A DNA stretch of 64,000 nucleotides from Amycolatopsis sp. FBCC-B4732 (lineage in GTDB: Bacteria > Actinomycetota > Actinomycetes > Mycobacteriales > Pseudonocardiaceae): assembly GCF_023008405.1 (NCBI RefSeq), contig NZ_CP095376.1, forward strand, positions 7,978,501 through 8,042,500, given 5' to 3'. Below the pieces are notes generated by a model. It did not search any database, had not been told where the DNA came from, and was given only the letters and a program-made list of their open reading frames with translations. Both the position numbers and the translations under genes were made by a program. Shown here piece after piece: positions 6,764-41,206 of the stretch; positions within the stretch are counted from its first letter, which is position 1, and each line of letters opens with the position of its first letter.

Positions 6764-9022
6764 ATGACCACCGCCGAGGAACTGCTCGGCAGGCTCGCGG
6801 GCCTGGACCGGGACGGGCTGGCGAAGGTGCTGGCCCACCGGCCGGACGTGCTGGCGGAGCCGTGGCCGCGGCGGCTCGACGTCGTCGCGGCGAGGCTCGC
6901 GTCACCCGAATCCGTCGACGAAGTCCTGCTCGGGTTGTCCCTGCCGCTGACCCAGGTGCTGCGCGCGGTCCAGCTGTGCGACGCGCTCAGCCAAGGGCCC
7001 GTACCGCTCGACGACGTCCGCGCGCTGCTCGGCGGTGCCGCCGTCGAGTCCTCTGTGGACGAACTCGCCGAGCGCGCGCTGCTGTGGCGCGACGGCGACC
7101 GGATCGTGCTGCTGGAAGTGCTGCAGCGGAACAGCTTCCGCGCCGAGGGACTCGGGCAGCCCGTCGCCGACCTGCTCGCGGACCTCACCACGATCCAGCG
7201 GGCGCGCCTGGCCCGCAACCTCGGGGTGCCGCCGGCGGACCTCGTCCGGTACTTCCGCGACGGCGACCGCGTCCGCGCGCTGTTCGCCACCGCACCCGAG
7301 CAGACGCGGAAAGTGTTGCGGGACATGGCCGAGGGCGTCCCGGAGGTCGACGGCATGCCGCCGCTGGGCTGGGCGCTCGACCACGGGTTCCTGTTCGGCA
7401 CCTACTACGGCGGCACCGCGATGCCGATCGAGATCTCGCTCGCCCTGCGCGGGGCGGACCACCGGCTGCCCTTCACGCCCGAGGAGCCGGAGTACGCCGT
7501 CACGCACGTCGGGACCGAGGCGGCCGAGGCCACGTCGTCGGCCGCCGCGCTGCGGCTGCTCGACCGCGTTTCGGCGGTGCTCGACCTGGCCGCCGCGGAG
7601 CCGTTGCCGCTGCTCAAGGACGGCACGATCGGGGCCCGGCTGATCAAGAAGGTCGCCAAGGACACCGGGGCGACGCCGGCGGAGATCGAGCTGGCCATCG
7701 ACCTCGCGGCGCAGGCGGGTCTGCTGCTCGCCGACGAGCCGCCGGTTCTCCGCCGCGGCCAGAAGGCACCGCCGCCCACGCTCGCGCCGGATCCCGACCT
7801 CGCCCGCCCCGCGCCGGCGCTGCTGTACCGACTGCTGCTGACGACCTGGTGGCACCCGGTGCCGCCCGAACACGGAACGGACGTCGACGCGTTCGTCCGG
7901 CGGCTGGTCGTGCGGCTGCTGGCGCGGCTCGAGCCCGGCGCGGCGCTCACCGGCGACCTGACCCGCCTGGCCGAGTGGCACGCGCCGCTGCTGCCCACCG
8001 ACGACCTCGCCGCGTCCGTCGAGGCCGCCGTCGCCGAGGGTGAACTGCTCGGCCTCCTCGCGCACGGCGCGGTCACCGCCACCGGGCGCGCGCTGCTGTC
8101 CGGCGACGGGCTCGTCGAGGTCACCGGCGAACTCGTCGCCCGCGCGCGGACGACGGCGCTGTTCGGCACCGACCTGACGGCGATCGTGCCGGGCTCACCC
8201 GACGCCCGGCTGGCCGCGCTGCTCGACCGCGTCGGCGACCGCGAAGCCCAGGGCACCGCGACGAGCTGGCGGTTCTCCCCCGCGTCCGTCCGGCGCGCGT
8301 TCGACCAGGGCGCGACGGCCGCCGAGCTGCTCGCCGACCTCGGCGCGATCGCCGCGGGCGAGCTGCCGCAACCGCTGGTGTACCTGGTCAACGACGTCGC
8401 GCGGCGGCACGGGGAAGTCCAGGTGCTCGACGTCGCGAGCGTCGTCGTCGGGGAACCCGCGATGCTGGCCGAGCTCGCCGCGCACCGCAGGCTCGCCAAG
8501 CTCGGGCTGCGGTCCCTGGCGCCGACGGTACTGACGTCCACTGTGGACGCCGCCGGCACGCTCGAAGCGTTGCGCGAAGCCGGTTACGCGCCGACCCGCC
8601 ACGCCGCCGACGGCACCATCCTGCTGCCCGCGCGCGAACAACCCGAACCGAAGGCCGTCCTCCGCGACGCCGAACCCGGGGAACTCCCGCCCGATCCCGC
8701 CGACCACGCCGAACGGCTGCTGGCGGCCCCGGCGAGCGGCCCGGTGCTGCTGCGCGGCCAGCTGGCGCGCGCCATGAGCGACCGGTACGCGGGCCGGCTC
8801 ACGCCGAAGCAGCAGCAACTCTGCTGGCAGCTCGAAGCCGGGATCCCGGTGGACGTCGTGTACCGCGCGGCCGAAGCCGAGCCCGCGCGGCTGGTGATCG
8901 CGTATCCCGAGCTCGACGGCGACGTCCTCGACGTCTGGTCGCTCGGGGAGCACGCCTACCGGCGGCTCGAGCTCGCGCGGATCGACCTGGCTCAGACCTC
9001 GACCGCGCTCAGCCGGGCGTAG
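6764..9022 (+). CDS. Helicase-associated (XPB/Ssl2 N-terminal-like) domain protein
   Basis: A 752-residue protein that opens MTTAEELLGRLAGLDRDGLAK and closes PELDGDVLDVWSLGEHAYRR. This matches the actinobacterial family typified by Mycobacterium Rv0862c, built from winged-helix segments and an XPB N-terminal-like domain. It has no Walker motifs of its own. In mycobacteria the gene sits beside the XPB-type helicase gene; here no helicase is adjacent, so any partner is encoded elsewhere. The start lies 14 bases after the excalibur gene, suggesting cotranscription. Its 3' end overlaps the convergent sortase gene by 31 bases. Confidence 0.85.
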   Translation: MTTAEELLGRLAGLDRDGLAKVLAHRPDVLAEPWPRRLDVVAARLASPESVDEVLLGLSLPLTQVLRAVQLCDALSQGPVPLDDVRALLGGAAVESSVDELAERALLWRDGDRIVLLEVLQRNSFRAEGLGQPVADLLADLTTIQRARLARNLGVPPADLVRYFRDGDRVRALFATAPEQTRKVLRDMAEGVPEVDGMPPLGWALDHGFLFGTYYGGTAMPIEISLALRGADHRLPFTPEEPEYAVTHVGTEAAEATSSAAALRLLDRVSAVLDLAAAEPLPLLKDGTIGARLIKKVAKDTGATPAEIELAIDLAAQAGLLLADEPPVLRRGQKAPPPTLAPDPDLARPAPALLYRLLLTTWWHPVPPEHGTDVDAFVRRLVVRLLARLEPGAALTGDLTRLAEWHAPLLPTDDLAASVEAAVAEGELLGLLAHGAVTATGRALLSGDGLVEVTGELVARARTTALFGTDLTAIVPGSPDARLAALLDRVGDREAQGTATSWRFSPASVRRAFDQGATAAELLADLGAIAAGELPQPLVYLVNDVARRHGEVQVLDVASVVVGEPAMLAELAAHRRLAKLGLRSLAPTVLTSTVDAAGTLEALREAGYAPTRHAADGTILLPAREQPEPKAVLRDAEPGELPPDPADHAERLLAAPASGPVLLRGQLARAMSDRYAGRLTPKQQQLCWQLEAGIPVDVVYRAAEAEPARLVIAYPELDGDVLDVWSLGEHAYRRLELARIDLAQTSTALSRA

Positions 9023-9642
9023 ACGACGACGTTGTCCAGGTAGTTGCCGCTCGCCCGGTCGAACGCGCCGCCGCAGGTGATCAGCCGCAGCTCGGGATCG
9101 GCCGTGTCGCCGTACACCTGACCGGTCGGGAATTCGGCTTTCGCGTAGCGGTCGACGCGGTAGACGGTGAAGACCGCGATCCGCCCGTCGGCGCGGCCGA
9201 CCCGGGCCTGCTCGCCGGGGCGCAATTCCTTGAGCCGGGAAAACGCGCCGGGCACGTGCTTGTAGTCGACGTGCGCGGCCAGCACCGCCGGGCCGACCTC
9301 GCCGGGCGACGGCGCCCCGGTGAACCAGCCGACCGTCGTGGCATCCGGCGGGACCTCGAGCGCGCCGTCCGCGGTGAGCCCGAGGTCCTCGAGCGCGTCC
9401 GCCCGGACGCCGATCGCCGGGATGCTCAGTGACGCCGGTTTCGCCGCCGGCAGGCCGCCGGCGGTCGCGGTCGCGGTCCCCGGGGCGCCCGAGGTGCCCG
9501 TGGCGGCCGGGACCGCGGGGCTCGGCGGTGCGATCGGGTCCGGCGTCCGCGGCGACAGGACGAGGACGAGGGCCACGGCCAGGACCACCCCGAGCGCGGC
9601 GACGACCGCCGTGACCGCGGGCCACAGGCGCGGGTACCTCAA
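8992..9642 (-). CDS. Class F-type sortase
   Basis: A 216-residue transpeptidase with an N-terminal membrane anchor (about residues 6-28), a Pro/Thr/Ala linker and a compact sortase domain. The catalytic residues are visible: His in LAAHVDYK, Cys in LITCGG and Arg in FDRASGNYLDNVVVYA. I chose TTG 9642-9640 because it overlaps the stop of the preceding gene as TTGA, giving translational coupling. No alternative start lies downstream before the membrane helix. The coupled excalibur protein is the obvious candidate substrate or partner. The gene end overlaps the convergent XPB-N-like gene by 31 bases. Confidence 0.85.
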   Translation of the reverse strand: MRYPRLWPAVTAVVAALGVVLAVALVLVLSPRTPDPIAPPSPAVPAATGTSGAPGTATATAGGLPAAKPASLSIPAIGVRADALEDLGLTADGALEVPPDATTVGWFTGAPSPGEVGPAVLAAHVDYKHVPGAFSRLKELRPGEQARVGRADGRIAVFTVYRVDRYAKAEFPTGQVYGDTADPELRLITCGGAFDRASGNYLDNVVVYARLSAVEV

Positions 9643-10133
9643 CTCGGGCGCCGGCGCAGGTAGAGCACCATGCCGCCGGACGCCGCCGCGGCGACGAGGG
9701 CGCCGCTGAGCAGCAGGAAGCCGGGGACTTCGGGATCGGGTTCGCCGCCGCCGGTGGCCACGCCGCCGACCGGCTTGACCTTGACCTGGGTGCCGGTGTG
9801 CTGCTTGGTGGTCGTCTTCGGGGCCGGCTGGGTGCGGGTCTTCGTCGCCGTGGTGGGCCGCTCGGACGTCGGCGCGGGTGCGGTGCTGCCCTGCTGCGGG
9901 CGGTGCGGCAGGGATTCGCAGGCGATGCCGTCGTTGTCGGCGTCGAGGTGGTTCGGGTCCCCCGGCGTCGCGTCCAGGACGGCTTGCGCGTCTTCCTGGT
10001 ACTGGAAATCGGGGCAGTCGACGTCGGCCGCGAGCGGCGTCGCGAGCTGCGCGGAAGCGAAGGAGACGGGGCCGAGGATGGCGAACCCGGCGACGGCGAC
10101 GGACGTCGTCAGGGCACGACGGAACAAGGACAA
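9639..10133 (-). CDS. Exported excalibur-domain protein with C-terminal membrane tail, coupled to the sortase
   Basis: A signal peptide (about residues 1-29, cut near SFASAQ) precedes an excalibur domain with VDCPDF and the calcium loop DADNDGIACE. A long Thr/Lys/Pro linker follows. The C-terminus has the form of a sorting signal: hydrophobic stretch LLLSGALVAAAASGGMVLY, then RRRPS. The usual LPxTG is not present; the sequence before the helix is DPEVPGF. Its TGA overlaps the TTG of the sortase gene. It is either an unusual sortase substrate or simply membrane-anchored. Confidence 0.85.
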   Translation of the reverse strand: MSLFRRALTTSVAVAGFAILGPVSFASAQLATPLAADVDCPDFQYQEDAQAVLDATPGDPNHLDADNDGIACESLPHRPQQGSTAPAPTSERPTTATKTRTQPAPKTTTKQHTGTQVKVKPVGGVATGGGEPDPEVPGFLLLSGALVAAAASGGMVLYLRRRPS

Positions 10134-10417: not shown

Positions 10418-11044
10418 ATGCCGATCCAGGTGCTGCTCGTCGACGACCACGAACTGGTCCGCCGCGGGCTCCGCGACCTCCTCGGCGACGAGCCCGACAT
10501 CGAGGTCGTCGCCGAGGCGAGCAGCGTCGAAGAAGCGCTGGCGGTGGCGATGCACGTCGAACCGGAGGTCGCGGTGGTCGACGTCCGCCTCGGCGACGGC
10601 GACGGCATCACGCTCTGCCGCGAACTGCGGTCGAAACCGAACCCGCCGGCCTGCCTGATGTTGACGGCGTTCGACGACGAAGAAGCGATGGTCGGCGCCA
10701 TCATGGCCGGCGCGGCCGGGTACCTGTTGAAGCAGGTGCGCGGGCAGGACGTCGTGCACGCGGTGCGCGAGGTCGCGGCCGGGCGCTCGCTGCTGGACCC
10801 GCTGAGCACCGCGCGGGTGCTGGACAAGATGCGCCACCCGCCGACGGACGAGCTGGCGACGCTGACCGAGCGCGAGCGCGACGTGCTCGAGCTGATCGGC
10901 CAGGGCCTGTCCAACCGCGAGATCGCCGAGCGGCTGTTCCTCGCGGAGAAGACGGTCAAGAACTACGTCACTTCGGTGCTCGCGAAGCTCGGCATGCAGC
11001 GCCGGACCCAGGCCGCCGCCTGGATCGCGCGGCGCGAGAAGTAA
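10418..11044 (+). CDS. NarL/DevR-type response regulator
   Basis: A 208-residue two-component regulator. The receiver domain (1-120) has the acidic pair DD at 9-10 and the phospho-acceptor Asp55 in VVDVRLGDGDG. A LuxR-type helix-turn-helix lies near 145-205 (LTERERDVLELIGQGLSNRE, then LAEKTVKNYVTSVLAKL). Overall it resembles DevR/DosR regulators, which pair with GAF-domain kinases of the HisKA_3 type. Just such a kinase is encoded convergently at 11253-13226, so the two are probably cognate although not in one operon. Confidence 0.9.
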   Translation: MPIQVLLVDDHELVRRGLRDLLGDEPDIEVVAEASSVEEALAVAMHVEPEVAVVDVRLGDGDGITLCRELRSKPNPPACLMLTAFDDEEAMVGAIMAGAAGYLLKQVRGQDVVHAVREVAAGRSLLDPLSTARVLDKMRHPPTDELATLTERERDVLELIGQGLSNREIAERLFLAEKTVKNYVTSVLAKLGMQRRTQAAAWIARREK

Positions 11045-11252: not shown

Positions 11253-13226
11253 TCAGTCAAGTGGGAGGTCGAACGCGACGAGTGTGCCGAGACTGGGTGA
11301 GGAGTTCAGGAAGAACTTCCCGCCCGCGGCGTCCGCGCGTTCGGCGAGATGACGCAGACCACGGGTGGCGACGCCCTGGGGAACACCGGAACCGTTGTCC
11401 CGGACGCGGAGTTTGACACCGTCGGAGTCCCTGGCCAGCGTCACGCGGGTTTCGCTCGCGCCGGAGTGTCTGACCACATTGGACAGTGCTTCGCGCAGAG
11501 CGGCCCGGATGTGGTCGGCGTGTTCCGCGGGGATGTCGGCGAATTCGCCGGACAGCTCCAGTGTCGGCGGGTAGCCGAGCAGTTCGCCGGCGATACGGAC
11601 CTCGCCGCGCGCCGACTCGGCGAGGTCGGTGGGCGTGCCGGTGTCGTGGCGAGGCTCCGGCGACCGCAGCGCGCGCACGGTGCCGCGGATCTCCTCGATG
11701 GTCTGGTCGAGCTGGTCGATCGCGTCGGAGAGCCGAGCCCCATCGGCTTGGGCGAACCGCTTGCGCATGTTGCGCCGGACCCGGTCCAGTTGCATGCCGG
11801 CGCCGTAGAGCCGTTGGACGATGACGTCGTGGAGCTCGCGGGCAATGCGCTCCCGCTCCTCGTACAGCGCGACCCGATGCCGCGCGTTGGCCCCCTCGGC
11901 GAGCGCGAGCACAACCCCGGCCTGCGCGGCGAAGGCGACGAGCATCTCGACGGTCCCCGCGGAGAAGGGCTCCCTGCCCCGCCTCCGGTAGACGGTCAGC
12001 GCCCCGAGCACCCGCCCCCCGGACCCGAACGGCGCCGCCGCGAACGGCCCATAGCCGTGCAGTTCGGCGGGAACGTAGGGCGCGGTCCGCGGATCGACGG
12101 TGAAGTCATCGCTCGCCACGGGTTCTCCCCCGCGAGCGACGTGCCCGGCAGCGGAATCGGCGGGCAGGGCGAGGCCCCGCAGCGACTCCCCGTTCGACAC
12201 GCCGGCACCTGAGCCGGCGGGATCGCCCGCGGCCGGGCCGGCGGTGCGATCGGCGCCTGGGCTGGCGGTGTCGCCCGCGGTGCGGTCGGCGCCTGGGTTG
12301 GCGGGGTCACCCGCGCTCGCGCCGGCGGGCGCGCTGGCGGGGCCGCTTGCGGCCAGACCGGCGGCGCGGGGGCTGGCGGTGTCGCCCGCGCTCGGGCCGA
12401 CGGGCCTGCTTGCGACCGGACCGGCGGTGCGATCGGCACCTGGGCCGGCGGGGTCACCCGCGCTCGCGCCGGCGGGCGCGCCGGCGGGGCCGCTTGCGGC
12501 CAGACCGGCGGCGCGGGGGCTGGCGGTGTCGCCCGCGCTCGGGCCGACGGGCCTGCTTGCGACCGGACCGGCGGTGCGATCGGCACCTGGGCCGGCGGGG
12601 TCACCCGCGCTCGCGCCGGCGGGCGCGCCGGCGGGGCCGCTTGCGGCCAGACCGGCGGTGCGATCGGCACCTGGGCCCGCGGCGTCACCCGCGCTCGGAC
12701 CGGCGAGGCCGCTTGCGGCCGGACCAGCGGTGCGATCGGCACCTGGGCTGGCGGCGTCACCCGCGCTCGGACCGGCGAGCGCGCTGGCGGGGCCGCTTGC
12801 GGCCGGACCAGCGGTGCGATCGACCCCTGGGCCTGCGGCGTCACCCACGCTCGGACCGGCGAGCGCACTGGTGGAGCCGCTAGCGACCGGACCAGCGGTG
12901 CGATCGACCCCTTGGCCCGCGGTCGGCTCGCCGGGCGCGGCACCGGGCTCGGCCGTGCGCGCACCGAACCCCAGGCCGGCTGCGGACCCGACGTGGCCGC
13001 CCGCGGCCGGGTGGGGGCTGGCGTAGTGGGCGGCCTCGACCACCACGCGGCCGTCGTCGGCGCTCACCATTGCCAAGCCCAAGTCGGCGTCGGCTAGCTC
13101 GGCTGCTCGGGCTACGACCGTGTCGAGCACCGCGCCCGGGTCGTCGCCGGAAAGGGCGGTGCTCGTGATCTCGGTGGCGGCGGACAGTGCCCGCGCGGCA
13201 AGCGTCGGATCCATGAGTGCCGTCAT
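11253..13226 (-). CDS. GAF-domain histidine kinase (HisKA_3 type) with a large repeat insertion in its GAF domain
   Basis: A 657-residue soluble kinase. The GAF domain begins near residue 30 (DLGLAMVSADDGRVVVEAAH at 48-67) and resumes near 348 (LRGLALPADSAAGHV through VLGALTVYRRRG). About 270 residues of Ala/Gly/Pro/Asp repeats separate the two halves. The phospho-acceptor is His466 in ERIARELHDVIVQRLYGAG. The ATPase has Asn583 in REALSNVVRHSGA and DNGSGVP at 610-616. The ATG at 13226 is 26 bases after the cydDC stop, so the kinase ends the cyd operon. That suggests a role in oxygen or redox sensing. The convergent regulator at 10418 is the likely partner. Confidence 0.85.
   Translation of the reverse strand: MTALMDPTLAARALSAATEITSTALSGDDPGAVLDTVVARAAELADADLGLAMVSADDGRVVVEAAHYASPHPAAGGHVGSAAGLGFGARTAEPGAAPGEPTAGQGVDRTAGPVASGSTSALAGPSVGDAAGPGVDRTAGPAASGPASALAGPSAGDAASPGADRTAGPAASGLAGPSAGDAAGPGADRTAGLAASGPAGAPAGASAGDPAGPGADRTAGPVASRPVGPSAGDTASPRAAGLAASGPAGAPAGASAGDPAGPGADRTAGPVASRPVGPSAGDTASPRAAGLAASGPASAPAGASAGDPANPGADRTAGDTASPGADRTAGPAAGDPAGSGAGVSNGESLRGLALPADSAAGHVARGGEPVASDDFTVDPRTAPYVPAELHGYGPFAAAPFGSGGRVLGALTVYRRRGREPFSAGTVEMLVAFAAQAGVVLALAEGANARHRVALYEERERIARELHDVIVQRLYGAGMQLDRVRRNMRKRFAQADGARLSDAIDQLDQTIEEIRGTVRALRSPEPRHDTGTPTDLAESARGEVRIAGELLGYPPTLELSGEFADIPAEHADHIRAALREALSNVVRHSGASETRVTLARDSDGVKLRVRDNGSGVPQGVATRGLRHLAERADAAGGKFFLNSSPSLGTLVAFDLPLD
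12195..12911. repeat. In-frame tandem repeats inside the histidine kinase GAF domain
   Basis: Ten degenerate units, most carrying the core GADRTAG or GVDRTAG with linkers such as SAGDPAGPGADRT, fill residues about 106-345 of the kinase. At DNA level, 12349-12495 and 12496-12642 are identical 147-bp copies (49 codons). Further towards 12900 the spacing becomes 72, 84 and 84 bp (24 or 28 codons). All spacings are multiples of three, so length changes keep the kinase in frame. Such arrays can change copy number by slippage or recombination. Confidence 0.9.
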
Positions 13227-13252: not shown

Positions 13253-16200
13253 TCACGGCACCGGTACCCGGGTCACCACGCGGCCGTCGCGGACCTCGAG
13301 GACCACGTCCGCGCCGGCGGCCTCGTCGGCTCGGTGGGTCACGTGCAGCACCGTGCGGCCGGCCAGGGCTTCGCGCAGGTGGGTGCGCACCGCCTGGGCC
13401 GTCGGTTCGTCGAGGTGCGCGGTCGGTTCGTCCAGCAGGACGAGCCCCGCCGTCGGTGCGCCGAGGAGCGCTCGGGCCAGTGCGACTCGCTGGGCTTGGC
13501 CGCCGGACAGGCCGGTGCCGCCGCTGCCGAGGAGTGTGGCCGGGTCGACGTCGTCGAGGGCGGCCTCGTGGAGCGCTTGCCGGAGCTCCTCCTCGGTTGC
13601 CGTGGGGCGGGCGAGGCGGAGGTTCTCGGCGACCGTCGTGGCCGCGAGCATCGGCTCCTGCGGTGCCCACGCGACGACGTCCGGAACGCTGACCACACCG
13701 TCGCGCGGGGTGAGGAACCCCAGCAGGGCGGCGACGAGCGTCGACTTGCCCGCGCCGCTCGGGCCGACCACCGCGGCGTACGTGCCCGGCGCGAGGGTGA
13801 CGTCCACGTCGTGGAGCACGACCGGGCCGTCCGGCCAGCCGAGGTCCGCTCCCTTCAGCTCGACACCGGTCCCGGGGTGCGTGGGCCGGGCAGCCGCGGG
13901 CGGCGCGTCGGCCAGACGGTGGCGGGCGCGCTGCAGCGTGTCCCAGTGCTGCGCCACCGGCGGCAGCAGCGCGAGGACCTCCGCCAGCGCGAGCGGCACC
14001 AGCGCGAGCAGGGGCGCCAGGACCGGGTCGAGCTGCCCGGCCGAGACCGCCGAAGCGGCGAACGCCGTGCTGAGGACCGCGGCCGTTCCGCACGCCAGCG
14101 TCACCAGCGCTTCCGCCGCGCCCGCGCCGAACGCTTGACGGCGGGCTTGCGCGGCCAGGCGGGTGTCGGCGTCCGCCAGCGCGCCGCGGTGGGCGCGGGC
14201 CGTGCCGAAAGCGAGGAGTTCGGCCGCCGCTTCGAACAGGACCAGGACTCGCGAGGCCACGTCCCGGCGGCCCGTCGCCAGCGCCGACGTCGCCCGGCGT
14301 TCGGTGCGCAGCGCGACCCACGGCGCGCACAGGCCGAGGGCCACCGCCGCCGCGAGGGTCAGGCCGGCCGCGGGGAGGACCCACGTCTGGACGGCGATCG
14401 CGCCGGCCGCGACCAGTGCCACCACCAGCGGCGGCGAGACCACCCGGGGCAGCAGGTCGCGCACGGTGTCGACGTCGGCGACCAGGCGGCGTTGCCCTTC
14501 GCCCGCCCGCAGGCCGCGCGCGGGGCCGAGGCGGACCAGGGAATTCCACAACCGCACGCGCAGCCGGCCGGCGATGCGGAACGCGGCGTCGTGGGTGACC
14601 AGACGCTCGACGTAGCGCAGCCCGGCGCGGCCCAGCCCGAACGCGCGGACGCCGACGACCGCGACCGTCAGGGTCAGGATCGGCGGCTGCTGCGACGCCT
14701 TCGCGATGAGCCAGCCCGACGTCGCGGTCAGCGCCACCCCGGCCAGTAGCGCCACCGCACCCAACGCCGCTCCCCCGAAAAGCCGGCCGTCGAGGAGCGC
14801 GCGCCAGCCCAGGGACTCGTTCGAAGTATCCTTTGTGGACGGTTCAGGAATAGCAAAAACCTCGGGCGCGAGGGAAACCGCCGCCGTGCGCTCGTGGGCC
14901 GCGATGACGGCCGCGGCGCCGTTGTCGACCGCGCGCTGGACGGCGTCGAGGACCAGGCGCGCGGTGGCCTCGTCGAGGTGGGCCGTCGGCTCGTCGAGCA
15001 GGAGCAGCCAGGCACCGCGCTCGACCCGGACCAGCGCGCGGGCGACGGCGACGCGCTGGCGCTGGCCGAGCGACAGCTTCGCGACCGGACGGTCCGCGAG
15101 CCCGGTCAGGCCGAGTTCGTCGAGCAGGGCGGCCGAGCCGACCTCCTCGCGGACCGTGCCGCCGGTGAAGACCGGCGACTGCGGCACCCACGCGACCTGC
15201 TCGCGCCACCGCTCGAGGTCGGCGTCGGCGAGGTCGACCGGCCCGACCGTGATGGCGCCGTCGTGCGCCGGGACGAAACCGAGGAGGGCCGAGAGCGTCG
15301 TCGACTTGCCGCCGCCGCTCGGGGCGCGGAGCCAGACCGTTTCACCGGGGCGGACCGAGAACGTCTCGCCGTCGGGGGCGAACCCGTCGCGCCGGGCCAC
15401 GCGCAGCGAAGACACCCGCAGCTCGCCGCGGGCGGGGATCGCGGTGCCGGCCGCGGGGGCCGGCGTGGCCAGCAGGTCGGCGACGCGCCGGACCGCTTCG
15501 ACGCCGTCCTCGCTGGCGTGGAACGCGGCGCCGACCGCGCGCAGCGGCTGGTAGCACTCCGGCGCGAGGACCAGCACGCCGAGCCCGATGGCCAGCGGCA
15601 GGTGACCGCCGGCCAGCCGGACGCCGATGACCACCGCGACCAGCGCCACCGACAGCGTCGCGGCGAGCTCGAGGACGAACGCCGAGGAGAAGGCGACCTT
15701 CAACGTCTTGAGCGTCGCGCGGCGGTGGCGTTCCGACAGCCGCCGGACCGTCTCGCCCTGCGCGGCCGCGCGGCGGAACGCGGTCAGCACCGGCAGCACG
15801 CGCACGAGCTCGAGCAGCAGCCCGGACATCCGGTGCGTGGCGTCGGTCGCGCCGGCGACGCGCCCGGCCGTGTACTTGCCGACGAGGATCGCGAACATCG
15901 GGAGCAGCGGGACGGTCAGGGCGATGATCACGCCGGACGGCCAGTCGGCGAACAGGATCGCCGCGCCGGCGCCGAGCGGGACGACGGCCGCCGTCACGAG
16001 GGCGGGCAGGTATTCGCGGAAGTACGCGTCGAGCGCGTCGAGGCCGCGGGTGGTCAGCGCGGTCAGCTCGCCGTGGCCGCGCCGGGCGATCCACTCGGGG
16101 CCGAGGCGCAGCGCGTGGTCGACGGCCCGGGCGCGCAGCTCGCGTTGGGACGTCGCGGCCGCGCGGGCCGAAACCGTGCGCACCGCCCAGCCGGTCAGCG

Positions 16201-16486
16201 CGCGCGTCGCGACGAGTGCGAGCAGCGCGGCCAGCTGGGCGGTGCTTCCCCCGGAGCCTGCTCCGACGATCGCCGCGAGGACGTCGGCGAGCAGGAACGC
16301 CTGCGCCACCAGCGCGGCGGCGTTGAGGAACGAAAGGAACCCCACCAGGGCCAGCGCTCGACGCACAGCCGGCACCAGGGCCGGCAATGCGCCGAGCGGG
16401 CCCTTTCCCGGCCGCGCCGAGTCCACTGTGGACTCCGAGGCGGAAAGGGGAGCGCGCCCGGGAAGCTGGGACGGCCGGGGCCTCAC
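13253..16486 (-). CDS. cydDC: Fused CydD-CydC thiol-reductant ABC exporter
   Basis: A 1077-residue protein carries both halves of the heterodimeric exporter that moves cysteine/glutathione-type thiols to the periplasm and is required for cytochrome bd assembly. The first half has membrane helices, Walker A APSGGGKST, signature LSLGQRQRVAVARAL and Walker B LLLLDEPTAHLD. The second half has further helices, GPSGAGKST, LSGGQAQRVALARAL and LVLLDEPTAHLD. The start GTG 16486-16484 overlaps the cydB stop as GTGA, so translation is coupled. Fusion of the two subunits is known in actinomycetes. In a mycothiol producer the physiological substrate is uncertain. Confidence 0.93.
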   Translation of the reverse strand: MRPRPSQLPGRAPLSASESTVDSARPGKGPLGALPALVPAVRRALALVGFLSFLNAAALVAQAFLLADVLAAIVGAGSGGSTAQLAALLALVATRALTGWAVRTVSARAAATSQRELRARAVDHALRLGPEWIARRGHGELTALTTRGLDALDAYFREYLPALVTAAVVPLGAGAAILFADWPSGVIIALTVPLLPMFAILVGKYTAGRVAGATDATHRMSGLLLELVRVLPVLTAFRRAAAQGETVRRLSERHRRATLKTLKVAFSSAFVLELAATLSVALVAVVIGVRLAGGHLPLAIGLGVLVLAPECYQPLRAVGAAFHASEDGVEAVRRVADLLATPAPAAGTAIPARGELRVSSLRVARRDGFAPDGETFSVRPGETVWLRAPSGGGKSTTLSALLGFVPAHDGAITVGPVDLADADLERWREQVAWVPQSPVFTGGTVREEVGSAALLDELGLTGLADRPVAKLSLGQRQRVAVARALVRVERGAWLLLLDEPTAHLDEATARLVLDAVQRAVDNGAAAVIAAHERTAAVSLAPEVFAIPEPSTKDTSNESLGWRALLDGRLFGGAALGAVALLAGVALTATSGWLIAKASQQPPILTLTVAVVGVRAFGLGRAGLRYVERLVTHDAAFRIAGRLRVRLWNSLVRLGPARGLRAGEGQRRLVADVDTVRDLLPRVVSPPLVVALVAAGAIAVQTWVLPAAGLTLAAAVALGLCAPWVALRTERRATSALATGRRDVASRVLVLFEAAAELLAFGTARAHRGALADADTRLAAQARRQAFGAGAAEALVTLACGTAAVLSTAFAASAVSAGQLDPVLAPLLALVPLALAEVLALLPPVAQHWDTLQRARHRLADAPPAAARPTHPGTGVELKGADLGWPDGPVVLHDVDVTLAPGTYAAVVGPSGAGKSTLVAALLGFLTPRDGVVSVPDVVAWAPQEPMLAATTVAENLRLARPTATEEELRQALHEAALDDVDPATLLGSGGTGLSGGQAQRVALARALLGAPTAGLVLLDEPTAHLDEPTAQAVRTHLREALAGRTVLHVTHRADEAAGADVVLEVRDGRVVTRVPVP
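16419..16435. repeat. 17-bp palindrome containing GTCCACTGTGGAC
   Basis: GAGTCCAC-T-GTGGACTC is a perfect palindrome inside the 5' end of cydDC. The same 13-bp core recurs at 8536-8548 inside the XPB-N-like gene, and with one mismatch at 59172-59184 inside the Ser/Thr kinase gene. See the finding on this recurrent element. Confidence 0.5.
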
Positions 16487-17490
16487 GGTGCGTGGACCGC
16501 CGGGATGTGCTGGGTCCCGATGCGCTTGCGGAACACCCAGTACGTCCAGCCCTGGTAGATCAGCACGGCCGGGGCGCCGAAGACGGCGACCCAGGTCATC
16601 ACCGTCAGCGTGTACGGGCTCGACGCGGCGCCCTCGATGGTGAGCGTGTCGGCGGCGTCCAGGGTCGAGGGCAGGACGTTCGGGAAGAGCGAACCGAACA
16701 GGACCACCGCGGCCCCGGCGATGACGACGCCGAGCGCGGCGAACGCCTGCCCGTCGCGGTCGGCGCGCAGCCGCAGCCAGGCGACGACCGCCGCCACGGC
16801 GGCAACGCCGAACGCGAGCAGCGTCCACAGCGTGCCTTCGCGCCACTGGACGACCGCCAGGAAGGCGACGATCGGCACCATCGCGAGCGGCAGCGCGCGA
16901 ATCGCCAGCCTGCGGGCGCGTTCCCGCAGGTCACCGCTGGTCTTGAGGGCCAGGAACGCGGCGCCGTGCGTGATCGAGAAGGCGGCGATGGCGACCGCGC
17001 CGAGCAGGGTGTCCCAGCGAAGGGCGGCGAACGCGGACCCGGCGCGGTTGCCCTCGGCGTCCAGCGGCAGGCCGAGCACGGTGGTCGCGAGGATGAGCCC
17101 GACGCCCAGCGGCGGGACCCACGAGCCGAGCACGATGACGCGGTCCCAGTTCCGCCGCCAGCGGTCGGAGTCGACCTTGCCGCGGTATTCGAAGGCGACG
17201 CCGCGGCCGATGAGGGCGAGCAGCAGGAGCAGGAGCGGCAGGTAGGCGGCCGAGAACAGGCTGGCGTACCAGCCGGGGAAGGCCGCGAACATGGCTCCGC
17301 CGGCGACGATCAGCCAGACCTCGTTGCCGTCCCAGACCGGCCCGATGGTGTTGACCATGACCCGGCGTTCGGTGTTGTCGCGCGCCAGGATCGGCAGCAG
17401 CATGCCGACGCCGAAGTCGAACCCTTCGAGGAACAGGTAGCCGAGCCAGAAGAACGCGATGACGACGAACCAGACGATTTCGAGGGTCAT
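16483..17490 (-). CDS. cydB: Cytochrome bd ubiquinol/menaquinol oxidase subunit II
   Basis: A 335-residue integral membrane protein with about nine hydrophobic helices, beginning MTLEIVWFVVIAFFWLGYL and containing the family signatures EGFDFGVGMLLP and GPVWDGNEVWLI. It pairs with CydA to form the high-affinity terminal oxidase that reduces O2 to water. The start ATG 17490 has a strong GGGAGGAG ribosome site 8 bases upstream; the frame is open further back to 17529. Its stop overlaps the cydDC start. Confidence 0.96.
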   Translation of the reverse strand: MTLEIVWFVVIAFFWLGYLFLEGFDFGVGMLLPILARDNTERRVMVNTIGPVWDGNEVWLIVAGGAMFAAFPGWYASLFSAAYLPLLLLLLALIGRGVAFEYRGKVDSDRWRRNWDRVIVLGSWVPPLGVGLILATTVLGLPLDAEGNRAGSAFAALRWDTLLGAVAIAAFSITHGAAFLALKTSGDLRERARRLAIRALPLAMVPIVAFLAVVQWREGTLWTLLAFGVAAVAAVVAWLRLRADRDGQAFAALGVVIAGAAVVLFGSLFPNVLPSTLDAADTLTIEGAASSPYTLTVMTWVAVFGAPAVLIYQGWTYWVFRKRIGTQHIPAVHAP

Positions 17491-17521
17491 CGGGCCGCTC
17501 CTCCCACCTGGTCGCCGTGAG

Positions 17522-17565
17522 TTGTCCACAACTTGCCGAGTTGTCCACAGGTAGGCTGTGGGTAA
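17522..17565. promoter_or_regulatory. Cluster of three DnaA-box-like sites between cydA and cydB
   Basis: TTGTCCACA occurs at 17522-17530 and again at 17541-17549, exactly the box favoured by actinobacterial DnaA. TTACCCACA lies on the opposite strand at 17557-17565. All three fall in the 114-bp gap between cydA and cydB. This gap is unusually long for an otherwise tightly coupled operon. The sites could titrate DnaA or regulate cydB expression, or be chance. Confidence 0.5.
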
Positions 17566-17604: not shown

Positions 17605-19077
17605 TCAGTAGGCGAAGGCGAGCGTGTCCTCGCCCGGTTTGTCGGAATCCTGCGTTTCCGGGGGCATCACCGCTTCGACGCCGCCGCGGATGTACTTCCG
17701 CATCAAGAACAGCTCGACCACGCCGAGAGCCGCGTACACCGTGGTCAGCGCGATGAGTGACGTCCACACCTCACCGGTCGTCAGCCGCGACACCGCCTGG
17801 GCCGTGAACATCCACACCCCGTCGACGCCCGACGGGTTCGGGACCACCACGAACGGCTGACGGCCCATCTCCGTGAAGATCCAGCCCGCGCTGTTGCCGA
17901 GGAACGGCGTCGCGATGCCGCCCAGCACCAGCAGCGGGAACCAGCGCGTGGTCGGGATCCGGTCGCGGCGGGTCAGCCACAGGGCCAGCAGCCCGATGCC
18001 CGCCGACACCGCGCCGAAGCCGATCATCATGCGGAAGCCCCAGTAGGTCACCGGGAGATTGGGCACGTAGTCGATCGGCTTGCCCGCGAGCGAGCCGAGC
18101 GCCGGGTCGTCCGGGTAGTTGGTGCCGTACTTCGCCTGGTACTCCGTGATCAGGTCCTCGACGCCCTTGACCTCGGTCTTGAAGTCGTTGTGCGCCAGGA
18201 ACGAGAGCAGCGCCGGCACGTTGAACGTCTTGACGTCCTCGCAGTTCGACCCCGCGACGTCGCCGATCGCGATGATCGAGAAGCTCGCCGGCTGCTCCGT
18301 GTGGCACAGCGCTTCCGCCGAGGCCATCTTCATCGGCTGCTGCTCGAACATCAGCTTGCCCTGCGCGTCACCGGTGACGGCGAGGACGGCGAAGGCCGCG
18401 ATGCCGACCCAGCCGCCGAGCCGCAGCGACGAGCGCCAGACGTCCTGGTTCGAGCGCCGCCGCCAGAGGTGCCAGCCCGCGACGCCCACCAGGAACGCCG
18501 CCGCCACCGAGAACGCGCCCGCCAGGGTGTGCGGGATAGCGGCCAGCGCCGTGTTGTTCGTCAGCACCGCCCAGATCGAGTTCATCGTCGGCTTGCCGTT
18601 CTCGAACGTCACGCCGACCGGGTGCTGCATCCACGAGTTCGCCGCAAGGATGAAGTATGCCGAAGCCATCGTGGCCAGCGAGAACGCCCAGGCGCACGCC
18701 AGGTGCACCTTCTTCGGCAGCCGGTCCCAGCCGAAGATCCACAGGCCGAGGAAGGTCGACTCGACGAAGAACGCAACGAGCCCTTCCATGGCCAGCGGCG
18801 CGCCGAAGACGTCGCCGACGAAGCGGGAGTACGCGCTCCAGTTCATCCCGAACTGGAACTCCTGCACGATGCCGGTCACGACGCCCATCGCGAAGTTGAC
18901 CAGCAGCAGCTTGCCCCAGAACTTCGTCATTTTGAGGTGCCGCAGCTCGCCGGTGCGGACCCACCGGGTCTGCATCGCCGCGACCAGGATCGACAGCCCG
19001 ATGGTCAGCGGAACCATCAGGAAGTGGTAGACGGTGGTGATGCCGAACTGCCACCGCGCTAGCTCTAGGACCTCCAC
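17605..19077 (-). CDS. cydA: Cytochrome bd ubiquinol/menaquinol oxidase subunit I
   Basis: A 490-residue membrane protein that binds the haems of the bd oxidase. The N-terminus LELARWQFGITTVYHFLMVP includes the axial His18. The quinol loop is the short type and contains QQPMKMASAEAL, and GRQPF is the counterpart of the conserved GRQPW. The start is GTG 19077; no strong ribosome site is visible. It lies 38 bases downstream of the S41 peptidase gene, so its promoter is either in that gap, inside the upstream gene or shared with it. It is the first gene of cydA-cydB-cydDC-kinase. Confidence 0.96.
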   Translation of the reverse strand: MEVLELARWQFGITTVYHFLMVPLTIGLSILVAAMQTRWVRTGELRHLKMTKFWGKLLLVNFAMGVVTGIVQEFQFGMNWSAYSRFVGDVFGAPLAMEGLVAFFVESTFLGLWIFGWDRLPKKVHLACAWAFSLATMASAYFILAANSWMQHPVGVTFENGKPTMNSIWAVLTNNTALAAIPHTLAGAFSVAAAFLVGVAGWHLWRRRSNQDVWRSSLRLGGWVGIAAFAVLAVTGDAQGKLMFEQQPMKMASAEALCHTEQPASFSIIAIGDVAGSNCEDVKTFNVPALLSFLAHNDFKTEVKGVEDLITEYQAKYGTNYPDDPALGSLAGKPIDYVPNLPVTYWGFRMMIGFGAVSAGIGLLALWLTRRDRIPTTRWFPLLVLGGIATPFLGNSAGWIFTEMGRQPFVVVPNPSGVDGVWMFTAQAVSRLTTGEVWTSLIALTTVYAALGVVELFLMRKYIRGGVEAVMPPETQDSDKPGEDTLAFAY

Positions 19078-37340: not shown

Positions 37341-38507
37341 GTGTTCGACCCCCGCGATCCCGAGTTCCTCGAAGACCCGTACCCGGCCTTCGCCGCCCTC
37401 CGTGCCCAAGGCGACGTCCATTTCCACGAAGGCCTGGGCATGGCCATCGCGGTATCGCACGCGGCTTCGTCGGCCGTCCTCCGCCACCGCGGCCTGGGCC
37501 GCATCTGGCAGGACGCCCAGCCGCTGGAGCGGTTCGCCTCGTTCAACCTCCTGCACCGCAATTCCCTGCTGGAGAACGAGCCGCCCGCCCACACCCGCCT
37601 CCGCCGCCTGATCGCGGGCGCGTTCGGCCGCGGCCACGTCCAGCGCCTGCGGCCGATGGTCGCCTCACTGGCCGCCGACATGGTCGACGACCTCGCCGCC
37701 GCCATCGCCACCGACGGCAGCGCGGACCTGCTGGAGCACCTGGCCCAGCCCCTGCCGGTCGCGGTGATCGCCGAGCTGCTCGGCGTGCCGGGCTCGGACG
37801 GGCCGCGGATGGTCGAGCTGTCCAACGCCATCGTGAAGATGTACGAGTTCGGCCGCCCGGAGTCGGACCGCGACGCCGCCGAGCAGGCTTCCGCCGAGTT
37901 CGTGTCGTACGTCCGCTCGGTGGCTTCGGCCCGCGCAGCGGCCCCGGGCGACGACATCATCAGCGACCTCCTGCGCAGCGAGCTGACGCCCGACGAGCTG
38001 GTGGCCACCGCGGTGTTGTTGCTGATGGCGGGCCACGAAGCGACGGTGAACGTGCTCGGCAACGGGATCACGGCGCTGCTGACGCACCGGGACCAGTGGG
38101 AGCGTCTGCTGGCTTCACCTGCCCTTCTGGATTCGTGTGTGGAGGAGCTGATCCGGTTCGACGCCCCGCTGCAGCTGTTCGAGCGGACGGCCACCGAGGA
38201 CGTGTCGATTCGCGGGTATGTCGTTTCGCGGGGCGAGAAGATCGGGGCGCTGCTGGGTGCCGCAGCGCGGGATCCGGAGGTGTTCGACTCGCCGGACCGG
38301 TTGGACATCGGGCGGACGCCGAACGCGCATCTCGGGTTCGGGATGGGGATTCACTACTGCGTGGGTGCTCCTTTGGCTCGGGTGGAGATCGGGGCCGCGT
38401 TGAGCGCGTTGGCGGAGAAACTGCCGGGGTTGAGGTTGGCGGAGACGCCGGCGCGGCGGCCGGAGTTCGTGATCCGCGGGTTGAAGGAGCTGCGGGTCAC
38501 GGTGTGA
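37341..38507 (+). CDS. Cytochrome P450
   Basis: A 388-residue soluble class I bacterial P450. The oxygen-binding I-helix is LLLMAGHEATVNVLG, the K-helix ExxR is in VEELIRFDAPLQL, and the haem-ligand loop is FGMGIHYCVGAPLARVE with the proximal Cys. GTG 37341 (MFDPRDPEFLEDPYPAF) is the natural start. No ferredoxin, reductase or biosynthetic gene is adjacent, so the substrate is unknown and redox partners must come from elsewhere. Confidence 0.93.
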   Translation: MFDPRDPEFLEDPYPAFAALRAQGDVHFHEGLGMAIAVSHAASSAVLRHRGLGRIWQDAQPLERFASFNLLHRNSLLENEPPAHTRLRRLIAGAFGRGHVQRLRPMVASLAADMVDDLAAAIATDGSADLLEHLAQPLPVAVIAELLGVPGSDGPRMVELSNAIVKMYEFGRPESDRDAAEQASAEFVSYVRSVASARAAAPGDDIISDLLRSELTPDELVATAVLLLMAGHEATVNVLGNGITALLTHRDQWERLLASPALLDSCVEELIRFDAPLQLFERTATEDVSIRGYVVSRGEKIGALLGAAARDPEVFDSPDRLDIGRTPNAHLGFGMGIHYCVGAPLARVEIGAALSALAEKLPGLRLAETPARRPEFVIRGLKELRVTV

Positions 38508-39017
38508 GGCCGGGCCGGTCGGCGGCGCGAAGCCGGGCGGCCCGGTGCCGGGGTAGAGCCTGGGCAGCGGTCGGCGGGGCCAACGGCGGCAGGCATTGGA
38601 CCGCCGACCGGGCGGGGCAGCATTCGGCAGCGCGGGCCCCTGGCCTGGGCTGGCGGCGGTGCGAAGGCGGGCGGCCCGGGCAGCGGTCGGCGGGGGCGAA
38701 CGCGGCAGGCATTGGACCGCCGGCCGGACGGGCAGCATTCGGCAGCGCGAGCGCCCGGCCTGAGCGGTCGGCGATGCGAAGCCGGGCGGCCCGGTGCCGG
38801 GGTGGAGCCCGGGCAGCGGTCGGCGGGGCCAACGGCGGCAGGCATTGAGCCGCCGACCGGACGGGGCAGCATTCGGCAGCGCGAGCCCCTGGCCTGAGCG
38901 GTCGGCGGCGCGAAGGATGCCGGCCTGCGCCGGGCCGGGCCGGTCGAGGCGGAGTGAGGCGGGCGGACCTGCGCCGGGGCGGGGCTCGTGACGTGGCGAG
39001 GGCGTGGGGCTTGCCGG
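38508..39017. repeat. Non-coding G/C-rich tandem repeats between P450 and mca
   Basis: This 510-bp gap between convergent genes holds direct repeats. The word GCGAAGscGGGCGGCCCGG begins units at 38527, 38661 and 38776, and its first part recurs at 38910, so the periods are 134, 115 and 134 bp. Each full unit also carries GGCAGGCATTG (38588, 38704, 38837) and GCATTCGGCAGCGCG (38620, 38735, 38869). Frames are open on several strands because stops are rare in such DNA, but none has a start signal or conserved length, so I call no gene. Confidence 0.8.
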
Positions 39018-39863
39018 TCATGGGGTCACTCCTGCGAAAAGGTCGTCCTCCTGAGCGGGGCCTGGGGCCGGGTGGGCCAGGTGGTAGTCCTCGTAGGGCC
39101 AGGCCTCGCGCTCGATCTCGCGCGAGTGAGCGAAGAACGGGTGCGCCGGGTCGACCTGGGTGGTGTGGGACAGGAGGGCCTTATCGCGGGTGGCGAAGTG
39201 GTCGGCGCAGCGGATTCGGGTGGTCACCTTGAGGTTGTCTTCGGGTGGGAGCTCGGCCAGGACCTCGGCCATCGCTGACTCGAGGCCGGCGGCCAGGGTG
39301 GCTTCGTGGAGGGCGACGAACCACGCTCGGCTCAGGGTGGCCTGGTAGTACAGCTTCTGCGGTTGCCAGGGGTCGCCCGTGCCCGGGTAGCGGGTGGGGT
39401 CGGCGGCCGCCGAGAAGGCTTCGACCGTTGCCTCGTGGGTGCGGATGTGGTCCGGGTGGGGATAGCCGCCCGTTTCGTCGTACGTGATCACTACGTGGGG
39501 GCGGAACTCGCGGATCAGGGCGACCAGCGGGGCGGCCGCCGCCGAGAGCGGGAGGGCGGCGAAACAGCCTTCGGGCAACGGCTCGCCGTCGGCCGGGAGG
39601 CCGGAGTCGGTCAGGCCGAGGAAGCGGTGGCGGACGCCGAGGATCTCCGCGGCCGCCGCCATTTCGCGACGGCGGATCGCCGGGAGGTTCGCGCGGTTCT
39701 CCTCCGTGTCGACGGCCGGGTTCAGGATGTCGCCGCGCTCGCCGCCGGTGCAGGTGGCCACCAGGACCTCGACGCCTTCGGCGGCGTAGCGGGCCAGGGT
39801 GGCCGCTCCTTTGCTGGACTCGTCGTCGGGGTGGGCGTGGACGGTCAGGAGACGCAAGCTCAT
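39018..39863 (-). CDS. mca: Mycothiol S-conjugate amidase
   Basis: A 281-residue zinc amidase of the LmbE/PIG-L fold. It cleaves mycothiol S-conjugates of toxins and antibiotics to a mercapturic acid and glucosaminyl-inositol. Zinc ligands are in AHPDDES (10-16) and in the later HPDHIRTH; VATCTGGERGDILNP is typical of the Mca/MshB group. Length and the C-terminal HPFFAHSREIEREAWPYEDY favour Mca over MshB. ATG 39863 overlaps the stop of the DHA2 exporter gene as ATGA, so translation of the two is coupled. Confidence 0.93.
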   Translation of the reverse strand: MSLRLLTVHAHPDDESSKGAATLARYAAEGVEVLVATCTGGERGDILNPAVDTEENRANLPAIRRREMAAAAEILGVRHRFLGLTDSGLPADGEPLPEGCFAALPLSAAAAPLVALIREFRPHVVITYDETGGYPHPDHIRTHEATVEAFSAAADPTRYPGTGDPWQPQKLYYQATLSRAWFVALHEATLAAGLESAMAEVLAELPPEDNLKVTTRIRCADHFATRDKALLSHTTQVDPAHPFFAHSREIEREAWPYEDYHLAHPAPGPAQEDDLFAGVTP

Positions 39864-41206
39864 CGGGGACTCCTCCAGGGAAAGAACGCGGCGGGGATCA
39901 GGGTCAGGACCGACAGCGCCAGCGCCCACGAGAACGTCGTGCCGAACGCCGTCGGGGGCGCCGACACGGTCAGCTCGCGGTGCAGGATCGCGACCAGCAA
40001 GGCCGTGCCGAGGGAGCCGCCGATGCGGTTGACCACGTTGAACGCGCTTGCCGCGCGCGGGATGCGGGACCGCTCCAGGGAGCCGTACAGCGTTGTCATG
40101 CCGGGGGTGGTGGCCGCGCCGAGGCCGGCGCCCCGGACCAAGAGGGACAGGGTCAGGAGGAGACCGCTCGGGTGCGAGCCGAGCTGGGTGAACGCGATCG
40201 TGCCCAGTACCGACAGCCCGATGCCGGCCAGCATCATCCGACGGGGCCCGAAGCGGTCCAGGAGACGGCCGCCGGCGAGCAGCACCGCCGCCGAGCCCAG
40301 GGCCTGGGGTGCCAGCAGCAGGCCCGCGCGCAACGCGCTCGCCTGCTCGACCTGCTGGTAGTACAGCGGGAGGAGCAGCATCGAGCTGTACAGCGACGCC
40401 CCGAGCAGGAACGTGCTCGCGCTCGCCACCGCGAACCCCCGGTTCCGGAACAACGTCAGGTCCAGCACCGGCGACGCGGTCCGCGACGCGTGGACGCCGT
40501 ACGCCAGCAGCAGGACCGCGCCCGCCGCCGTGGCCACGAGGACGCCCTCGGACAGGCCGTAGACCAGCGTGCCGAGCCCCGGCGAAAGCAGCGCGATGCC
40601 GACGACGTCGAGCGGTGCGCGGACGCCGCCGGGCTCCGGGGCCGGGAGGAGGCGGCGGGCGAACACGAGCGTCGCCACGCCCAGCGGGACGACGCCGAAG
40701 AACATCCAGCGCCAGCCGAAGTCCGCCACCAGCGCGCCGCCGAGCATCGGGCCCAGCACCGGGGCGACCGTCGCCGGCAGGGTGATCACGCCGATCATCC
40801 GGCCCAGCGCCGGACCCGCCGCCTGCGCGAACACCGCCTGGCCGACCGGCTGCATGAGCCCGCCACCCAGCCCGTGGAGCACCCGGAACGCGATCAGCGC
40901 CGGCGCCGACCACGCGAAGCCGCACAGCAGCGTGCCCGCCGTGAACAGCGCGACCGCGGTCAGCCACACCGCGCGGCCGCCGAAGCGGTCGGTCAGCCAG
41001 CCCGACAGCGGGATCGCCACCGAGGCCGCCAGCAGGTACGCGCTCGCCACCCACTGCACCGTCGTCAGCGGGCTCTCCAGGTCACGGGCGATCGAGTCGA
41101 TCCCCACGGTCACGATCGTCGCGTCCAGGATCGACAGCACCGCACCCATGATCAGGACCCCACCCAGCCCCCACAGCGCCGCGTCAGGACGAACTGCCGT
41201 CGTCAT
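39860..41206 (-). CDS. DHA2-type MFS multidrug exporter
   Basis: A 448-residue protein with about 12-14 helices. MFS motif A is WLTDRFGGRAVW, and motif C-like LPATVAPVLGPMLGG marks drug:proton antiporters of the EmrB/QacA group. ATG 41206 follows GTGGGGGGTGGGA; the frame is open to 41224. The gene is divergent from a TetR regulator, with operators in between, and coupled to mca. The arrangement suggests export of the drug, its mycothiol conjugate or the mercapturic acid. Confidence 0.92.
   Translation of the reverse strand: MTTAVRPDAALWGLGGVLIMGAVLSILDATIVTVGIDSIARDLESPLTTVQWVASAYLLAASVAIPLSGWLTDRFGGRAVWLTAVALFTAGTLLCGFAWSAPALIAFRVLHGLGGGLMQPVGQAVFAQAAGPALGRMIGVITLPATVAPVLGPMLGGALVADFGWRWMFFGVVPLGVATLVFARRLLPAPEPGGVRAPLDVVGIALLSPGLGTLVYGLSEGVLVATAAGAVLLLAYGVHASRTASPVLDLTLFRNRGFAVASASTFLLGASLYSSMLLLPLYYQQVEQASALRAGLLLAPQALGSAAVLLAGGRLLDRFGPRRMMLAGIGLSVLGTIAFTQLGSHPSGLLLTLSLLVRGAGLGAATTPGMTTLYGSLERSRIPRAASAFNVVNRIGGSLGTALLVAILHRELTVSAPPTAFGTTFSWALALSVLTLIPAAFFPWRSPR

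Follow-up and report, generated by a model that had tools for sequence, protein, structure and literature searches.

We examined a 64,000-nucleotide stretch of the soil bacterium Amycolatopsis sp. FBCC-B4732 (contig NZ_CP095376.1, hereafter the window), in which a sensor histidine kinase gene carries a long, repeat-bearing loop within its predicted GAF domain (Table 1). On the minus strand the genes run in the order cydA-like, cydB, cydDC fusion and kinase, the last lying 26 bases behind cydDC, beside genes for a respiratory enzyme that uses oxygen. A first interpretation made from the letters alone (the sequence-only reading) had placed the kinase in a cyd operon, and the common strand and short spacing support this placement, with limits. 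By its domains the gene product is a GAF-domain sensor histidine kinase of the HisKA_3 type: its GAF, HisKA_3 and HATPase_c matches score 48.5, 49.5 and 35.7 bits against Pfam cut-offs of 22.4, 24 and 26.4, respectively, and we take the RELHD motif around His466 to play its usual role. Several database records begin the protein at a second ATG, at residue 5. A NarL-type response regulator, encoded tail to tail with the kinase gene, is likely the partner of the kinase. The best NCBIfam matches, both below cut-off, were MadS for the kinase (76.8 of 500 bits) and MadR for the regulator (187.5 of 300); these would fit a cognate kinase-regulator pair rather than membership of that family, and a literature search on MadS/MadR returned nothing of use.

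Table 1. Features of the kinase locus, in positions of the window
Feature	Position	Strand	Basis or detail
GAF / HisKA_3 / HATPase_c sensor histidine kinase, 657 residues from the ATG at 13226	11253..13226	-	
First GAF part, residues 1-66	13029..13226	-	AlphaFold2: helices 7-25 and 30-44, strands 49-55 and 61-68
Hypervariable acidic loop, residues 67-348, 282 residues, predicted disordered	12183..13028	-	
Second GAF part, residues 349-440	11907..12182	-	Pfam GAF and structure model
HisKA_3 domain, His466 in RELHD motif	11658..11858	-	Pfam; invariant column
HATPase_c domain	11259..11519	-	Pfam
Exact tandem duplication, period 147	12336..12658	-	12336-12511 = 12483-12658, 176 bases
Eight exact DRTAG motifs	12237..12905	-	First 12891-12905, last 12237-12251
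NarL-type response regulator, tail to tail with kinase	10418..11044	+	Pfam, NCBIfam
cydDC fusion, open-frame extent	13253..16846	-	NCBIfam CydD and CydC above cut-off
cydB	16483..17529	-	NCBIfam TIGR00203 above cut-off
cydA-like gene	17605..19077	-	NCBIfam cytochrome bd subunit I, 319 bits, below cut-off 968

The loop contains a tandem array. The perfect 147-bp duplication noticed earlier at 12349-12495 and 12496-12642 is exact (147/147 bases), with identity at this shift extending to 176 bases, and Tandem Repeats Finder assigns the array 3.6 copies of the 147-base period with a score of 833, the highest in the window. The ten Asp-Arg-Thr-Ala-Gly (DRTAG) repeats of the sequence-only reading are present, but eight copies are exact (spaced by 28, 28, 24, 28, 49, 49 and 12 residues) and the count of ten includes degenerate ones. 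Similarly, the break in the GAF domain, put at about residues 70 to 348, was confirmed, although the loop is slightly longer than the 12186..12986 first assigned to it. The loop DNA has a GC (guanine plus cytosine) content of 82.3%, and its best off-diagonal self-match scores 229, where 100 codon shuffles reach at most 38. Because the array is single-copy in its own genome (at expectation values (E) up to 0.01, three other matches of 29-73 bases each), we ruled out a dispersed or mobile repeat. A plus-strand open frame of 308 residues (12100-13026) runs antisense through the array and probably results from the 82% GC content; an antisense gene was given no weight, other frames being often open in the 14 loops compared at DNA level (see below).

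AlphaFold2 modeling bears on two further points. A structure model had been suggested as a check on the GAF halves, and in the prediction they come together over the loop, forming one ordinary GAF fold with the loop between strands 2 and 3 of a single domain. The loop itself is predicted to be disordered, as had been supposed, with predicted local distance difference test (pLDDT) values of 30-39 over residues 81-340 and no secondary structure. Because the loop cuts the domain, the Pfam GAF (PF01590) and GAF_2 profiles match only its second part, covering 353-441 and 342-441, respectively (numbered with one additional residue at the start). Profile-based annotation can therefore miss part of a domain split in this way.

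For comparison among relatives we gathered 227 proteins, comprising the window kinase, 37 of 39 returned loci, all 37 being Amycolatopsis orthologues, and database proteins P0002-P0190. L046 and L047, which match only part of the kinase, were excluded, and P0191 was not added. The protein searches supplied the best 120 of 1025, 938 and 383 matches, with scoring limited to the candidates sharing most words, and the collections used hold mostly one genome per species. We could parse 208 of the 227 proteins; the 19 unparsed ones have short loops. A long-loop group, defined by the first loop residues, contains 108 proteins with loops of 17-282 residues in 62 different lengths, and the other 100 proteins carry 3-22 residues. 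These 108 proteins represent 100 distinct loops because the window, locus and database sets overlap. At the level of loci, 13 have long loops (17, 33, 36, 47, 54, 57, 87, 96, 109, 122, 136, 152 and 170 residues, with 282 in the window) and the other 24 have loops of 3-22 residues. The 14 long-loop genes with DNA, for which alone clade status is shown, form one clade with 100/100 support, and the orthologues of Prauserella and Saccharomonospora have loops of only 7-8 residues. From these sequences, the long loop would most simply be a derived trait of one clade.

Insert length varies between related kinases, as had been anticipated, and does so on near-invariant flanks. Across the 91 pairs of the 14 genes, median nonsynonymous (dN) and synonymous (dS) flank divergences were 0.010 and 0.36 (dS range 0.23-0.49), so the variation is seen between species and strains. 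None of these pairs (0/91) has equal loop length; a shared insert length in close relatives, which had been named beforehand as the contrary outcome, did not occur. Among all distinct proteins, 31 pairs have no flank differences at all (over 368-373 residues); the median difference in loop length within these pairs is 25 residues, with equal lengths in only 4. Where flanks are identical and lengths equal, as in L010 and P0002, 8 of 33 loop residues still differ. P0049, the closest to the window kinase among the matches listed, shows 1 flank difference in 371 and has a loop of 148 residues, whose ends align with those of the window loop and whose middle fails to align end to end. Overall, loop-length difference hardly follows relatedness (Spearman 0.08, 4851 pairs).

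Neighboring genes served as controls. In 13/13 long-loop loci, the aligned lengths of cydB (333) and the regulator (208) are constant and the same as in the window. The neighbors at 9000-9699 and 6764-9022, each compared in 12/13 loci, vary over 229-235 and 750-762 residues, respectively, with one value of 971 for the latter. The cydDC query was out of frame at its N-terminus, and CydDC lengths are therefore relative only. CydDC also carries repeat-rich inserts, of about 105-249 residues, located ahead of the second ATPase part in L014, L017 and L023 and between the halves in L041. Because these inserts occur, the expansion process is not peculiar to the kinase, and we rejected the idea that expansion is unique to it. 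Their net charges (0, +5, -3 and +19 in the order given, with insert limits set by eye) are not consistently acidic, unlike those of the kinase loops. Among the genes compared, the kinase loop alone is long throughout the clade.

All 100 distinct loops have a negative net charge (-2 to -16), which remains negative without the conserved ends, and shuffling the bases of the 14 DNA loops gives sequences with a basic mean charge (+2 to +43). Between the conserved ends, V, I, L, M, F, Y and W together make up about 7% of residues, and Cys is absent from 107/108 loops. In our interpretation, selection favors a loop that is acidic and polar. Net charge also changes little with length, at -0.027 per residue versus -0.083 expected (0/2000 permutations), and its spread among long loops is reduced (standard deviation 2.93 versus 5.06; 1/2000 in the collapsed set). 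Our permutation tests treat loops as independent, though they are related; collapsing similar loops left 73, in which the slope was similar. The weak slope arises mainly from acidic residues increasing less than proportionally with length. Strict charge buffering was weakened by a control over 22 residue contrasts, in which charge scatter, once scaled for length, was not significantly reduced (ratio 0.80, p 0.09; 0.76, p 0.036 with His counted as basic). A hold on total loop charge is thus possible but unproven.

Significant protein-level repeats (p<0.01) are present in 29/100 distinct loops, including 25/61 of those with at least 60 residues and 4/39 of the shorter ones. Where repeats are clear, the units differ between members, as in the 45-residue period of L025. 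The kinase loop of another Amycolatopsis strain, P0077, is built of a near-perfect 5-residue DNGDT repeat. This pattern would fit recurrent duplication followed by decay, a step that is inferred for loops without visible repeats.

Together, these findings suggest that the kinase carries a clade-specific, disordered acidic loop that is remade by in-frame duplication and decay and is held to frame and composition more than to sequence or length, an explanation we regard as probable. Slippage or unequal recombination would generate tandem copies in this GC-rich DNA, and point mutation would later erase them. Selection would purge frame shifts and hydrophobic or basic loops, with sequence and length barely seen by it. 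The resulting loop would act as a flexible, negatively charged bristle adjacent to the sensor domain, and the kinase would tolerate any length from about 17 residues up. Loop length ranges from 17 to 282 residues, and the likely reason is that the DNA repeats duplicate freely, whereas selection would mainly preserve frame and acidity. A tolerated loop under weak, composition-level selection is the most economical account.

Several observations weigh against this explanation. Most distinct loops (71/100) lack a significant internal protein repeat, and at DNA level the self-match exceeds every one of 100 codon shuffles in 6/14 loops, equals the best shuffle in 3 and is lower in 5. For the loops of these last two groups, duplication has to be inferred. 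Shifts are in-frame in 13/14 DNA loops, yet codon shuffles favor multiples of three too, making this weak evidence. The presence of at least 17 residues in 108/108 long-loop proteins, together with the partly conserved loop ends HYATAHP and AGES, hints at a function beyond tolerance. Finally, both the loop disorder and the GAF fold are predictions.

Such a function could be tuning, in which the bristle, through its length or charge, would control entry to the GAF site or the link with the kinase core and give each lineage its own setting. We consider this possible, if on the unlikely side. Retention of the loop in every parsed long-loop protein, the shallow charge slope and the narrow charge spread among long loops all favor it. 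However, length hardly tracks relatedness, lengths differ on identical flanks with no compensating kinase change, and the charge scatter scaled for length is not significantly reduced. In a related and more doubtful proposal, the loop would be a constant-charge, free-length electrostatic bristle built into the sensor domain, with repeat turnover rewriting the loop in every lineage while selection keeps the total negative charge, leaving each strain with its own calibration of a respiratory kinase of otherwise unchanging fold.

The sequence-only reading had gone further and likened the array to a phase-variation device. At a contingency locus of this sort, frequent copy-number flips within a population would switch the kinase. 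Exact long repeats are a plausible recombination substrate and the nearest relatives do differ in loop length, but no out-of-frame allele was found among 38 DNA-level genes, all of whose frames reach the kinase end, and the variation separates species and strains at the flank dS given above. We therefore regard a contingency locus as very improbable. The chance that the 147-base duplication of this genome is an assembly artefact appears slimmer still: exact repeats that exceed the length of short reads are prone to error, but this genome stands as a single contig (10,190,959 bases) and separately assembled relatives have long loops with other lengths and units, so an error could alter the copy number here but not the phenomenon. 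Decay of the kinase gene, with the loop as debris in a non-functional protein, might explain why the loop lacks sequence conservation and interrupts the Pfam domain match, but we rejected it as the least credible alternative given a flank dN/dS of about 0.028 and the invariance of His466 and the ATPase-domain columns in 49 aligned orthologues.

The kinase had also been called DevS-like. Its GAF fold and ATPase domain do resemble those of DevS/DosT, although the alignment to these proteins is weak (E 0.0006-0.02) and the column aligned with their heme His, which we take to be His149 of the DevS GAF-A domain, is Leu389, invariant in 49 aligned rows. DevS carries two GAF domains; our kinase differs from DevS/DosT in having one, in the Leu at the heme-His column and in a loop that is long in one clade. 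This Leu led us to drop DevS-type heme sensing as a reading. The adjacent residue 390 is His in 13/49 rows, and His450, kept in 44/49, is located in a helix behind the Pfam GAF match; inside that match, no well-kept Cys or His column was found among the aligned orthologues. From operon context, our guess is that the kinase senses a respiratory or redox signal.

Our literature search, confined to one open-access library, found no paper on this loop. The FtsZ C-terminal linker is a disordered segment of a conserved protein, and its length, composition and sequence are all hypervariable (PMC12607630). The kinase loop is likewise variable in length and sequence on conserved flanks, but the FtsZ linker lies between a globular domain and a tail peptide and is essential, whereas the kinase loop is predicted inside one folded sensor domain. 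Periscope Proteins of bacterial surfaces vary in repeat number between strains, which changes protein length (PMC8201768); they are folded tandem domains on the cell surface, whereas the kinase units are predicted to be disordered, are degenerate and have no predicted surface role. Hypervariable disordered regions are familiar as tails and linkers, and here one would lie inside a single sensor domain. Loop lengths running from 3 to 282 residues in closely related kinases amount to a natural experiment. A tuning role is testable because these lengths occur naturally on almost one and the same kinase, and the net-charge pattern yields a concrete prediction. Whether selection conserves anything in a disordered region of nearly free sequence and length, and if so what, is directly testable as well.

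A second tandem repeat in the window, at 38558-38934, consists of about 2 copies of 115-133 bases. It sits between open frames at 37341-38507 (plus strand) and 39018-41054 (minus strand) and looks intergenic.
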